From an uncultured Tateyamaria sp. (lineage in GTDB: Bacteria; Pseudomonadota; Alphaproteobacteria; Rhodobacterales; Rhodobacteraceae), in NCBI RefSeq assembly GCF_947503045.1, contig NZ_CANNCF010000001.1:1426001-1490000 (forward strand): a stretch of DNA of 64,000 nt. Reading direction: 5' to 3'. Positions 3,934 through 33,132 of the stretch are shown here, one piece after another (the stretch's first letter is position 1; each line of letters starts with the position of its first letter). The notes under the pieces were generated by a model. The model made no database searches and was not told where the DNA came from. It worked only from the letters and a program-made list of their open reading frames with translations. The translations under genes and the position numbers were made by a program.

Positions 3934-4449
3934 ATGTCCCATCCCAAACCCCGCGTCGGCGCACCGATTGGCGAAATGACCTGGGCCCTGATCGGCGGGG
4001 GCGAGGTCTCGGTCGGACAGGCCAAGGATCGCTGGACCATGCTGCTGGTCTATCGTGGCAAGCACTGCCCGCGCTGCAAACGGTTCCTGAACAAGCTCAA
4101 CGCCGCATTGCCCGCGTGGACGGCTGTGATGGACGTGGTGGTGGTATCGGCAGACAGTAAGGACAAGGCGCAGGCAGATATGGACGAGTTCGGCTGGGGT
4201 TTTGATCTGGCCTACGGGCTCAGCGAGGCGCAGATGCGCGCGCTTGGCCTTTATGTCTCTGACCCTTTGTCCGAGGCCGAGACAACGCACCGTTTTGCAG
4301 AACCGGGCGCCTTTGGCATCCGCCCCGACGGGTCGCTGATGCTGGTCAACATCTCCAACGGCCCCGCCGCACGCCCCGATCTCGACGAGCTGCTCGATGG
4401 CATGATTTTCAACATCGAAAACGACCGTCCCGTGCGCGGCACCGCCTGA
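3934..4449 (+). CDS. Redoxin / AhpC-TSA-like protein
   Basis: The 171-aa protein has a thioredoxin-fold start with a CPRC motif at C45-C48 after a beta strand (WTMLLVYRGKH), followed by helices and a GIRPDG strand-turn as in peroxiredoxin-like proteins. No signal peptide is seen, so it should be cytoplasmic. It is 27 bp after the GntR gene and ahead of the TRAP operator. A two-Cys CxxC active site suggests thiol-disulfide chemistry or peroxide reduction, but no partner reductase is nearby and its link to the uronate island is unclear. Confidence 0.6.
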   Translation: MSHPKPRVGAPIGEMTWALIGGGEVSVGQAKDRWTMLLVYRGKHCPRCKRFLNKLNAALPAWTAVMDVVVVSADSKDKAQADMDEFGWGFDLAYGLSEAQMRALGLYVSDPLSEAETTHRFAEPGAFGIRPDGSLMLVNISNGPAARPDLDELLDGMIFNIENDRPVRGTA

Positions 4450-4497
4450 CATCCGCGCGCCAAATCTGCACTCAATTGGCCATGCGTGAATTGGCAG

Positions 4498-4519
4498 TTG
4501 ACAATTCTGGTATACTAGT
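4498..4519 (+). promoter_or_regulatory. TRAP operon -35 element with overlapping GntR-type operator
   Basis: A consensus TTGACA (4498-4503) is followed four bases later by CTGGTATACTAG (4507-4518), identical in its core to the operators at 3052-3085. Binding here would sit in the promoter spacer and block transcription. No strong -10 hexamer is seen at 16-18 bp spacing. The site is 130 bp upstream of dctP. Confidence 0.65.
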
Positions 4520-4649
4520 CTTCTTTTGAATTGAGAAAAATGAGACGGCGCCCCGTCCAAGGCACTCCGGACCGGAGGATCTGCGTGCCCATCAGTCGGG
4601 CAGGGCGCGGTCGTAGAAGACTTCGACACTCAACATCAGGGAGGACATC

Positions 4650-5630
4650 ATGTTCAACAATCTCACCAAATCACTGGTCAGCGCCGTCGCGGTGACGGTT
4701 CTGGGGACAACGGCTTTTGCCGACAACTGGCGCGGCTGGAACATCCATGCCGACGGCTATCCAAACACCGTCGCTATGGACGCTTTTGCGGCCGCACTCG
4801 AGGAAAAGACAGGCGGCGAGATCACGCTGCAGATGTTCCACGGCGGCACATTGGGCAGCCAGCCCGACGCGGTCGAGCAGGTGCGCGCAGGCGCGCTTGA
4901 GATCGGCAACTTCAACCTTGGTCCCATCGGGCCCATCGTGCCTGCGGCCAACGTTGTGTCGCTGCCCTTCATCTTCAAGGACGTCCCGCACATGTTCCGC
5001 GTGCTCGACAGCGAAGGCGGGGCTGCCATCGCGGCTGGCATGGCCGAAAAGGGCCTTGTCCCTCTGGCATGGTATGATGCGGGCGCGCGGTCCTTCTACA
5101 ACGGTGACAAGGCAATCAATACGCCCGAGGATGTCGTCGGCATGAAGGTGCGGGTCATGAACAACGACCTGTTCACCGGCATGATCGCCGAACTGGGCGG
5201 CAACCCGTCCCCCATGGCCTTTGCCGAAGTCTATCAGGCGCTGAAAACTGGCGTTGTGGACGGGGCAGAGAACAACTGGCCGTCCTATGAATCGACCGGG
5301 CACTTCGAGGTTGCAGGCTACTACTCGCTGTCCCAGCACCTGATCATCCCCGAATGCATCTGCATCAACGCGGCCACCTATGAGGGTCTCTCGGACGAAA
5401 TGAAGGCCGCAGTGACCGAGGCCGCACAGGAATCAGCCCTGATGCAGCGCGATCTGTGGGCACAGCGTGAAGCCGCCAGCCGCAAAGCGGTCGAGGCCGC
5501 AGGGGTCGTGGTGAACGAAGTGGCCGACAAAGCGCCATTCCAGGCCGCAATGGGCCCGGTCTACGAGGCCTATTTCGGTTCAAATCCCGACCTCCGCCCG
5601 CTGGTCGAGCTTATTCAGGCCACCGAATAA
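4650..5630 (+). CDS. dctP: TRAP transporter periplasmic solute-binding protein (DctP)
   Basis: The 326-aa protein has a Sec signal peptide ending in AFA at residues 22-24, so the mature protein starts at Asp25 in the periplasm. It has the DctP-family layout, including a strand with MKVRVMNN, whose Arg is the usual carboxylate-binding position, followed by MAFAEVYQALKTGVVDG. It should deliver an organic acid to the DctQ-DctM membrane subunits. The operator upstream and the KdgF-like gene nearby suggest unsaturated or keto uronates as substrate; that is inference. A hairpin separates it from dctQ, a common way to keep binding protein in excess. Confidence 0.85.
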   Translation: MFNNLTKSLVSAVAVTVLGTTAFADNWRGWNIHADGYPNTVAMDAFAAALEEKTGGEITLQMFHGGTLGSQPDAVEQVRAGALEIGNFNLGPIGPIVPAANVVSLPFIFKDVPHMFRVLDSEGGAAIAAGMAEKGLVPLAWYDAGARSFYNGDKAINTPEDVVGMKVRVMNNDLFTGMIAELGGNPSPMAFAEVYQALKTGVVDGAENNWPSYESTGHFEVAGYYSLSQHLIIPECICINAATYEGLSDEMKAAVTEAAQESALMQRDLWAQREAASRKAVEAAGVVVNEVADKAPFQAAMGPVYEAYFGSNPDLRPLVELIQATE

Positions 5631-5650
5631 CGCGCGATTTGATGTAAGAC

Positions 5651-5691
5651 CAAAGCGTCCGGCCCCATCACGCAGGGACCGGGCGCTTTTT
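5651..5691 (+). terminator. Intercistronic hairpin with U-run between dctP and dctQ
   Basis: Arms 5652-5662 and 5679-5689 pair over 11 bp with one G-U pair, and a T-run follows. Its place between dctP and dctQ suggests partial termination or protection of the dctP mRNA 3' end, giving more binding protein than membrane subunits. Confidence 0.65.
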
Positions 5692-5707: not shown

Positions 5708-6235
5708 ATGAGCGATGCGCACAACACCCCCAAGTCCATAGTCAGGATGACCGCCGTGCTGGACAGCATCGCGCTGGTCTGCCGGGTGCTGACGGGTGTG
5801 TCACTGGTGGTGCTGACAGTGATCTTTGGCTGGCTGGTCTTTGGGCGCTACGTGCTCAACGCCACGCCCACATGGGTCGAACAGGTGGCCTTGCTGCTGG
5901 TCATGCTCATCGCCTTTGTGGGCGCTGCGGTGGGGGTGCATGAACATACGCACCTGTCTGTCACCATGTTGCGCACGGCAGTGCCCAAGCGCATCCGCAC
6001 CATCTTTGTGCTGATCACCGATCTGGCCATGGGCGGGTTTGGCGCGCTGATGCTGTGGTACGGCGCGCAACTGACCCTGTTCAAATGGGGCTCTCTCATC
6101 CCGCTGATCGACGTGCCCGAGGGCTTGCGCTCGCTGCCACTCACAGTAGGCGGCGCCCTGATCCTGCTCTTTTCCATTGGCCACCTCATCCGCCTGTTTC
6201 TCGGGCTGGACGAGCGGCTCGACAGTATCGAATAG
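5708..6235 (+). CDS. dctQ: TRAP transporter small permease (DctQ)
   Basis: The 175-aa protein has four hydrophobic segments, the usual topology of DctQ, with a conserved region around YVLNATPTWVEQVALLL and HEHTHLSVTML. It forms the small membrane subunit that pairs with DctM to import substrate using the sodium gradient. It starts 77 bp after dctP and ends 9 bp before dctM. The SD-like AGCGGAG lies before its ATG. Confidence 0.85.
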   Translation: MSDAHNTPKSIVRMTAVLDSIALVCRVLTGVSLVVLTVIFGWLVFGRYVLNATPTWVEQVALLLVMLIAFVGAAVGVHEHTHLSVTMLRTAVPKRIRTIFVLITDLAMGGFGALMLWYGAQLTLFKWGSLIPLIDVPEGLRSLPLTVGGALILLFSIGHLIRLFLGLDERLDSIE

Positions 6236-31563: not shown

Positions 31564-31615
31564 TAACGAGCATTGCTAAAAGGACCACAACCCAAGGATG
31601 AAAAGGGACTTTCCA

Positions 31616-32017
31616 ATGACCGCTCAACGTAAAATCGACCTTACTCTGGCTGCCTCCGACATCAGCGCGCTGCACAGCGGCGACGCGGTTGAAATGTTCT
31701 CTTCGGGCAGTATTGCAGCGCAGACCGACATGCTGTCGGGTGATGCCACTGCGATGTTCTCCTCAGGCTCGGCACCCATGGCCACGGCCCACAGCGACGC
31801 AGGCGATGCAGTCGAGATGTTCTCCTCAGGCTCCGCTCCGACGCGCAGCGACCTGAGCACGGGCGACGCGGTTCACATGTTCTCTTCGGGCTCTGCGCCA
31901 TCGGGCACGGCGACCGCGTCAGGCGATGCCACCGAAATGTTCTCCTCCGGCTCGGCGCCGACAACGGGCAAGATCACCGAAGGCGCCGTCACGGGCCTGT
32001 TTTCCTCCGGTTCGTAA
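31616..32017 (+). CDS. Six-fold repeat protein ending in FSSGS motifs
   Basis: The 133-aa protein starts at ATG 31616, where AAAGGGA lies 8 bp upstream; an ATG 18 bp earlier has no proper site. A 20-residue leader (MTAQRKIDLTLAASDISALH) is followed by six units of 20-21 residues, each with GDA-V/T-x-MFSSGS, at residues 22-32, 42-52, 63-73, 83-93, 103-113 and 123-133. The last is degenerate (GAVTGLFSSGS) and ends the protein. Repeat codons differ by synonymous changes (tct/tcc/tca/tcg), so the peptide, not the DNA, is conserved. There is no Cys, signal peptide or membrane segment. It may belong to a Rhodobacterales domain of unknown function (perhaps DUF6749; from memory, unchecked). It resembles a multi-core modified-peptide precursor; role unknown. 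Confidence 0.85.
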   Translation: MTAQRKIDLTLAASDISALHSGDAVEMFSSGSIAAQTDMLSGDATAMFSSGSAPMATAHSDAGDAVEMFSSGSAPTRSDLSTGDAVHMFSSGSAPSGTATASGDATEMFSSGSAPTTGKITEGAVTGLFSSGS

Positions 32018-32067: not shown

Positions 32068-33132
32068 ATGTCGAACATCATCGCCCTGAACGCCCCGCCG
32101 CGCCGCCAACGCCTGTCTGAACGGACGGCTGCGCTGATCGAGTGTTTTGCCCGTCAGCGTCGCATCCCGGATGATGTGTTCTGGCTCAAGGAAAACGCCG
32201 AACTGCTCAACATTCTGGAGTGTACCGGGCAACAGCTGACCCAGGATGATCTGGAACCGCAGCGCGCCTTTTACGAGGAATTGCCGGAACGGCTGGGGTT
32301 TTTCCCGCAATATTACCGGTTTCTGCTGTCCATCGGCCTCGATCTCGAAGACCTCGGGATGGAGGGCGTACAGATGGAACGGCTTTGCACCTGGACGGCG
32401 GCCCAGGGCCTGCCCGACGCCGAACTTAGCGATCTGCAGCGCGCCGAGGCCCGCCGCCTGCTGGCACGGCGCGGGGTGCATATGGGTGCCGCCGACCTCG
32501 GTCTGGATGACCGCCTGCGCGCCTTCATCAACCGCCCAGAAACCTTTGCGCTGCCCAACAAGAAAGCGGCCTATGAGCTGACGCATATCGTCTTTTACCT
32601 GTCCGAATATGGACGTTGTGATCCGAAACTGGGCACCGCGGCGCTCACCAGCCTCGAATACGCCGGCATCCTTGCCTATCTGGACCAGAACATGGACCTG
32701 CTGGCCGAGATTTGCGTGGCCTTGCGCCAGGCCGGGCGGACACCCAGTGCCATCTGGGAAGGGACAGTGCGCGCCAACCTGTCGACTTTTTACGTCGTTG
32801 CAGATGATCAGACGCCTTTTGCGGATCACTACCACGAATATCTGGTCTCGACCTGGGCGATGGCGGTGTTGGGGGCGGATGACAGCGGGGCGGCCTTGCC
32901 CGTGGGCCGCTGCCTGTTCCGGCGGCCGGAAAACCTCGCCTCTGCCTTGCGTCCCATGTCAGCAGCACTGATGTCCTTTGGCGCGTCACGCTCGGGCGAT
33001 TGGGGCAAGATGGAACAGGGCGTGCTTGGCCTGTTGGAAGAAGACGCGGCATGCACGCTACAGGCCACCGTCGCCTCAAGCGCTGTCTATCCGCAATTCT
33101 TCGAGGCCTTTGCCCGCGCCACCAGACTGTAA
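32068..33132 (+). CDS. Helical protein of unknown function paired with repeat protein
   Basis: The 354-aa soluble protein lies 50 bp after the FSSGS repeat gene, with GAAAGGA before its ATG. It is predicted nearly all helical. Notable stretches are KKAAYELTHIVFYLSEYG near the middle and FADHYHEYLVSTWAM in the C-terminal half, whose His, Glu and Tyr residues could form a site. No known catalytic motif, signal peptide or membrane segment is found. It may correspond to DUF6902 (from memory, unchecked). Tight linkage suggests it binds, modifies or exports the repeat protein, but the sequence does not prove an enzyme. Confidence 0.75.
   Translation: MSNIIALNAPPRRQRLSERTAALIECFARQRRIPDDVFWLKENAELLNILECTGQQLTQDDLEPQRAFYEELPERLGFFPQYYRFLLSIGLDLEDLGMEGVQMERLCTWTAAQGLPDAELSDLQRAEARRLLARRGVHMGAADLGLDDRLRAFINRPETFALPNKKAAYELTHIVFYLSEYGRCDPKLGTAALTSLEYAGILAYLDQNMDLLAEICVALRQAGRTPSAIWEGTVRANLSTFYVVADDQTPFADHYHEYLVSTWAMAVLGADDSGAALPVGRCLFRRPENLASALRPMSAALMSFGASRSGDWGKMEQGVLGLLEEDAACTLQATVASSAVYPQFFEAFARATRL

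Follow-up and report, generated by a model that had tools for sequence, protein, structure and literature searches.

Multi-core ribosomally synthesised and post-translationally modified peptides (RiPPs), such as the cyanobactins and the fungal dikaritins, are encoded as a leader, recurring recognition elements and near-identical tandem cores; repeats of ~20 residues are also found in the curli-type repeat amyloids. Here, we analyse a 64,000-nucleotide stretch of DNA (the window) from an uncultured Tateyamaria sp. of the Rhodobacteraceae (contig NZ_CANNCF010000001.1, positions 1,426,001–1,490,000), which encodes a protein with six FSSGS repeats, followed by a gene of the Pfam family DUF6902. 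We consider it probable that the repeat protein serves as precursor to a multi-core RiPP-like peptide, the cores of which would be modified by the DUF6902 protein, with epimerisation as the favoured chemistry. The window precursor resembles those of the cyanobactins and dikaritins in having a leader, recurring elements and near-identical tandem cores, and differs in that the sole constant partner found is DUF6902, no search having been made for the hallmark enzymes of those classes.

On the enzyme side, the nearest described systems are lasso-peptide epimerases. The family DUF6895, which has detectable homology to DUF6902, is called a lasso-peptide epimerase family in the title of a 2026 paper (ACS Catal., doi 10.1021/acscatal.5c08590; reference 371 of PMC13352647). 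MslH, in the parts of its description drawn on here, is a lasso-peptide epimerase with two His/Asp dyads and a calcineurin-like fold with Ca(II) (PMC10406935). These dyads recall, by analogy only, the two histidines and two acidic residues that are invariant in DUF6902; unlike MslH, the structural model of DUF6902 is almost all-helical and not calcineurin-like.

The repeat protein had been singled out in an earlier note made from the letters of the window, and its central observation stands: six FSSGS cores begin at residues 28, 48, 69, 89, 109 and 129 (spacings of 20, 21, 20, 20 and 20 residues), and the most frequent 5-mer occurs six times, compared with a maximum of three across 10,000 shuffles of the same protein. 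The repetition is beyond chance. As that note also stated, the protein contains no Cys and ends exactly with the sixth FSSGS, the stop codon (32015–32017) following directly. Two details required amendment: the leader before unit 1 is one residue longer than the 20 given, and the pattern GDA[VT]xMFSSGS, ascribed to all six units of 20–21 residues, matches five of them, the sixth reading GAVTGLFSSGS. Between the six units, the proportions of synonymous (pS) and non-synonymous (pN) differences in core codons are 0.62 and 0.07 (ratio 0.11), and both are 0.57 in spacer codons (ratio 1.00). Since the core codons differ mainly at synonymous sites, it is the peptide that is conserved and not the DNA, which upholds the selection on the peptide that the note had read from these differences. 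A search of its own genome with the window protein found one place only at E ≤ 1.

From a scan of the genome collection the best 80 of 361 DUF6902 relatives were kept, a set biased towards close relatives. A precursor open reading frame (ORF) lies upstream of DUF6902 in all 80 loci, located by script in 78 and by reading in two (L108, with FCSAS cores, and L130, with FMSGS cores), for which the script chose the wrong ORF. Together with the window and seven more distant loci, these provided 88 precursors, in which the script counted 603 units, from two to 15 per precursor, once four spurious V-hits in L099 and L103 had been removed from the original 607; the three precursors cut at a contig start (L104, L124 and L161) give unit numbers that are lower bounds. 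Most units pair the element G-x-x-[VT]-x-[MLA] with a core of five residues, after which xP usually stands. The regular expression for the core fixes G at –6 or V/T at –3, and restricts the letters allowed at positions 2 and 3 of the core; a core was retained only if three of its five letters recurred in another core of the same precursor, so that this consensus, the position tallies and core identity within a precursor are partly built in by the method. Of 515 spacings between units, 470 are of 20 or 21 residues and 21 are of eight. The start is MTA, MSA or MNA in 71 of the 85 precursors with an assigned start, including that of the window, and many homologues begin M[TSN]AxxK where the window leader begins. 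The gene-encoded leader and core that define a RiPP precursor are thus found here, with six cores in the window and a leader start and cores shared among homologues. In 76 of 88 precursors the protein ends exactly at core residue 5, which is suggestive only with respect to release; the other 12 have tails of 4–5 residues (ten), two residues (one) or nine residues (one).

The cores are uniform within most precursors and diverse between them. A single core runs through all units in 59 of the 88; the script gave 61, but its filter had lost a genuine unit in L128 and another in L168, and both of these precursors are mixed. There are 25 main core types, and at least 32 core changes are required on the DUF6902 tree, compared with one change at core position 1. 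The ratio pN/pS over the 88 precursors is 0.11 in cores and 0.65 in spacers, V-hits being included in the codon counts only for L136 and L161; between units, purifying selection acts on the core codons and far less on the spacers. Cores also switch as a block between close relatives: in L106 and L112, separated by a DUF6902 distance of 0.04, core position 2 holds S in every unit of one precursor and T in every unit of the other, including recognisably corresponding first, second and last units. The earlier note had proposed a comparison of homologues for variation in repeat number with a constant core. Repeat number does vary, as it had anticipated, and the core is constant within lineages and not between them, about a third of precursors holding more than one core sequence. 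Seven precursors (L121, L113, L133, L126, L128, L168 and L110) have two core types each, as where FSTSC units are flanked by terminal FSSGS units; such mixed arrays suggest two products or a transition.

The precursor co-occurs with DUF6902. Among 101 related genomes, 26 have a strong repeat match (E ≤ 8.3e-8), all with DUF6902, which is over its cut-off in 28. In the fairer sample of 395 genomes from the bacterial family of the window, DUF6902 was found in 111 and the precursor in 99 (E ≤ 1e-5), and all 99 fall inside the 111 (Fisher p 2e-80, relatedness ignored). The remaining 12 comprise one locus cut by a contig end (G479), three genomes with no precursor, and eight with divergent repeat precursors, the cores of which are YIAGL (G060, G712), MAQSFSAP (G691), LMPTSN (G664), LALSPSC (G597), YTTSC/FTTSC (G506), FSSTC/YSSTC/VSSTC (G607) and MMCCS (G444). 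In the three without (G058, G710 and G602), no precursor was found within 900 bases upstream or by a whole-genome profile search, which could miss divergent cores lying elsewhere. In Roseovarius litorisediminis (L154, from position 4001), the DUF6902 frame stops after 140 residues and the precursor, with FTSSM cores, is open; this row was kept in the DUF6902 tree (39% filled) and dropped from the invariant-residue alignment and the transporter count.

These results bear on the suggestion that the repeat protein is functionless and of low complexity, growing by slippage. Unit number varies widely, and adjacent units are near-identical in some arrays (L112, L115), as slippage would produce; however, core pN/pS is 0.11 between diverged units, and the precursor co-occurs with DUF6902. 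Selection and co-occurrence largely refute this account, and we regard it as extremely improbable.

The DUF6902 gene, which the earlier note did not mention, starts 50 bases downstream of the repeat gene (Table 1), and as a candidate modifying enzyme it strengthens that note's reading of a leader with tandem cores as a multi-core modified peptide; the homologues and the co-occurrence support that pattern, while cleavage and modification would follow from it. The protein matches PF21843 with E 2.1e-151 (504.3 bits, cut-off 27) and PF21836 (DUF6895) with E 2.7e-20 (73.4 bits, cut-off 23.8). Its closest named relatives are from Tateyamaria (64–73% identity), and the tree places it within a clade of 17 Tateyamaria-type rows, so that this genus is the probable source of the window on these grounds too. 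The genetic linkage to a maturation enzyme expected of a RiPP is thus provided by DUF6902, a putative enzyme. The model, with a predicted local distance difference test score (pLDDT) of 92.4, has a predicted alpha/alpha toroid fold, resembling the terpene cyclases and prenyltransferases. Four residues, H173, D210, E214 and H256 (numbered as in the window protein), do not vary in the 96 aligned DUF6902 rows, the three without a precursor set aside, or in the eight DUF6895-type rows (104 of 104 in all), the latter including L078, a weak DUF6902 match. In the precursor-less proteins the same positions read Q/L/R/T (L076, G058), R/I/R/M (L220, G710) and R/S/E/H (L221, G602). The invariant residues are thus tied to the presence of the precursor, and would be catalytic. 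Taken together, it is highly likely that the precursor and DUF6902 form an enzyme–substrate pair. In L076 and L220, DUF6902 without a visible precursor or the invariant residues may have been repurposed or be decaying. An exploratory search for DUF6902 columns varying with core type, over 35 near pairs of which 11 have different cores, established none; pairs with different cores are also further apart (mean distance 0.39 compared with 0.30).

Table 1. Features of the precursor locus, in window coordinates.
Feature	Position	Strand	Remarks
Probable ribosome-binding site AAAAGGGA	31601–31608	+	7 nt before ATG 31616; read from sequence
Precursor gene, leader and six repeat units	31616–32017	+	133 aa plus stop
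Leader MTAQRKIDLTLAASDISALHS, 21 aa	31616–31678	+	
Unit 1, GDAVEM-FSSGS	31679–31711	+	
Unit 2, GDATAM-FSSGS	31739–31771	+	
Unit 3, GDAVEM-FSSGS	31802–31834	+	
Unit 4, GDAVHM-FSSGS	31862–31894	+	
Unit 5, GDATEM-FSSGS	31922–31954	+	
Unit 6, GAVTGL-FSSGS, C-terminal end of protein	31982–32014	+	
DUF6902 protein, 354 aa, putative core-modifying enzyme	32068–33132	+	PF21843 match

What DUF6902 would do to its substrate can be approached through the cores. No side chain is common to FSSGS, FTNWC, FMQSV, MMCCS, LMPTSN, LALSPSC and YIAGL, and because the cores are so varied, reactions that depend on Cys, Ser/Thr, Asp/Glu or an aromatic residue do not fit them all. A change to the backbone therefore fits best, and by this argument from variety every core could be served by epimerisation, by cleavage of the backbone or by some other alteration of it. 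The earlier note had placed any modification on Ser, Met or the backbone; the backbone stays in contention, and the two side chains drop out. Given that no core side chain is shared, and that DUF6895 is called a lasso-peptide epimerase by title, L-to-D epimerisation appears the likeliest single reaction, an assignment that we hold tentatively and at slightly less than even odds. In the resulting scheme, DUF6902 would bind the G-x-x-[VT]-x-[ML] element and, by means of the two histidines and two acidic residues of its toroid, alter the backbone of the core behind it, with L-to-D epimerisation the leading candidate. Peptides whose last residue is the fifth of the core would next be freed by a host protease, and in many relatives export would be by a drug/metabolite transporter (DMT; EamA) encoded next in the operon. 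That the core is modified and released as small peptides seems somewhat likely. There is a small chance that DUF6902 alters the core by some other reaction, such as prenylation, hydroxylation, lyase chemistry or a C-terminal change.

The same invariant residues would also suit a processing peptidase, in which H173, D210, E214 and H256 hold a metal and each unit is cut, the peptides being otherwise unmodified. Two histidines and two acidic residues could serve this purpose, G-x-x-[VT]-x-[ML] precedes the core in most units (in part a product of the regular expression), and cutting requires no specific core side chain. Conversely, no peptidase family is among the Pfam matches of the window DUF6902 at E ≤ 1, the related DUF6895 is called an epimerase by a paper title, and the predicted fold is like that of terpene cyclases and prenyltransferases; we judge a peptidase unlikely.

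The regularity of the repeats raises a further alternative, given in the earlier note as a structural or adhesive repeat protein: a beta-solenoid or functional amyloid with cores stacked in register, for which DUF6902 would be a chaperone, modifier or secretion helper. The window protein shares with curli a repeat of ~20 residues, this period accounts for most spacings in the family (470 of 515), uniform cores within a protein would suit an in-register ladder, and AlphaFold places a short strand in each unit. The confidence of that model is low, however (pLDDT 55.7; predicted template-modelling score 0.40), and other features are at odds with a stacked structure, or with curli. Among the 88 precursors, six that are complete have no more than two or three units (L077, L085, L086, L144, L149 and L152), as do the divergent precursors of G691, G444, G506 and G607; 21 spacings are of eight residues; the divergent cores LMPTSN and LALSPSC contain proline; core identity switches as a block between close relatives; and the window protein has no Sec-type hydrophobic signal stretch by a Kyte-Doolittle scan alone (maximum 0.77 over 19 residues). 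A structural protein is thus disfavoured, and appears improbable.

The preferred reading, a multi-core precursor modified by DUF6902, has its own difficulties. Modification, cleavage and export are all inferred, and AlphaFold predicts strands in the units of the repeat protein, at low confidence. Mixed arrays combine FSSGS with FSTSC, or FTSGS with FTTSC. The loss of invariant residues is only partial in L221, which keeps E214 and H256, and since L076 and L220 are of one genus, the losses number about two independent events. The toroid fold is a prediction, a Foldseek search with the DUF6902 model found no PDB match at E ≤ 0.001, and the VIA-align Z is one that helical models can attain by chance. 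The link to epimerases draws on a title, and on a family distant from DUF6902. No protease or receptor is present in the conserved unit, the neighbouring genes not having been searched for one, and no transporter lies beside DUF6902 in the Tateyamaria rows, including the window.

This last point qualifies the proposal for export. Of 86 assessable loci, 52 have a DMT-family transporter gene after DUF6902, identified as EamA (PF00892) for the L167 copy; the gene starts four nucleotides before the end of DUF6902 in 48 of 53 matches over all loci. The best match elsewhere in the genome of the window is just 33% identical. As the transporter is missing at the loci of the window's clade, export by this protein cannot be general.

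DUF6895 offers a comparison beyond the roseobacters. Likenesses to DUF6902 comprise the detectable homology, the H/D/E/H residues and, at the loci inspected, a neighbouring ORF for a small peptide. In a 299-genome sample of the phylum the family is sparse, with eight matches at E ≤ 0.001 and six over the cut-off. Small peptide genes lie near DUF6895 in two more distant genomes of the phylum (G203, G281) and on plasmids of Kitasatospora, Streptomyces and Pseudalkalibacillus. An alignment of six such peptides, drawn from five loci that include the weak DUF6902 locus L078, has only one invariant column; by eye, the peptides show a leader motif, [SA]G[LI]x[DN], and often an aromatic-V-L-like end. 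They mostly have one core region, whereas DUF6902 precursors are tandem multi-core and lack this leader. These neighbourhoods suggest that the DUF6902/DUF6895 superfamily may generally act on small peptides.

Peptide genes with [SA]G[LI]x[DN]-like motifs were located near DUF6895 at 5708–5905 (L169), 5398–5658 (L170), 5329–5685 (L171) and 4104–4703 (L087), and a gene with a similar motif by eye, outside the alignment, on the reverse strand of L088, at 4134–4565 of the turned-round sequence. Peptides with this leader, found in several phyla, may make up a separate, undescribed precursor family. On Streptomyces fungicidicus plasmid p1 (L172, 3833–7688), two adjoining DUF6895-like genes, a peptide gene of 62 residues without the motif and a serine hydrolase gene form one run.

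The system appears to be a new type of ribosomal peptide with enzymatic modification, widespread and very variable, and searches of openly licensed PMC papers yielded no description of DUF6902 with a repeat precursor. If our reading is correct, ~28% of the genomes sampled from the family (111 of 395) encode an undescribed multi-core peptide pathway, and DUF6902 gains a substrate and a likely chemistry. Cores uniform within precursors and variable between them form an attractive natural library, and a single small enzyme family accepting FSSGS, LMPTSN, MMCCS and YIAGL would lend itself, through this tolerance, to peptide-backbone modification. The reading also yields a testable prediction on chemical communication in roseobacters. 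In a bolder form, which is rather unlikely as a whole, each roseobacter lineage would produce one short core in many copies, DUF6902 would introduce D-residues into these by epimerisation, and the peptides, released with a fixed C-terminal end, would be exported as a widespread, lineage-diversified signal or private natural product. The concerted change of cores would then mirror a change in the specificity of a partner, be it receptor, enzyme or target, much as for a peptide pheromone. DUF6902 and DUF6895 would together be a toroid-fold class of peptide epimerases, present in several phyla and served by leader families that differ.

Among the surrounding genes, one upstream we take to be exonuclease III, and those further downstream an IscA-like gene and a dGTPase.
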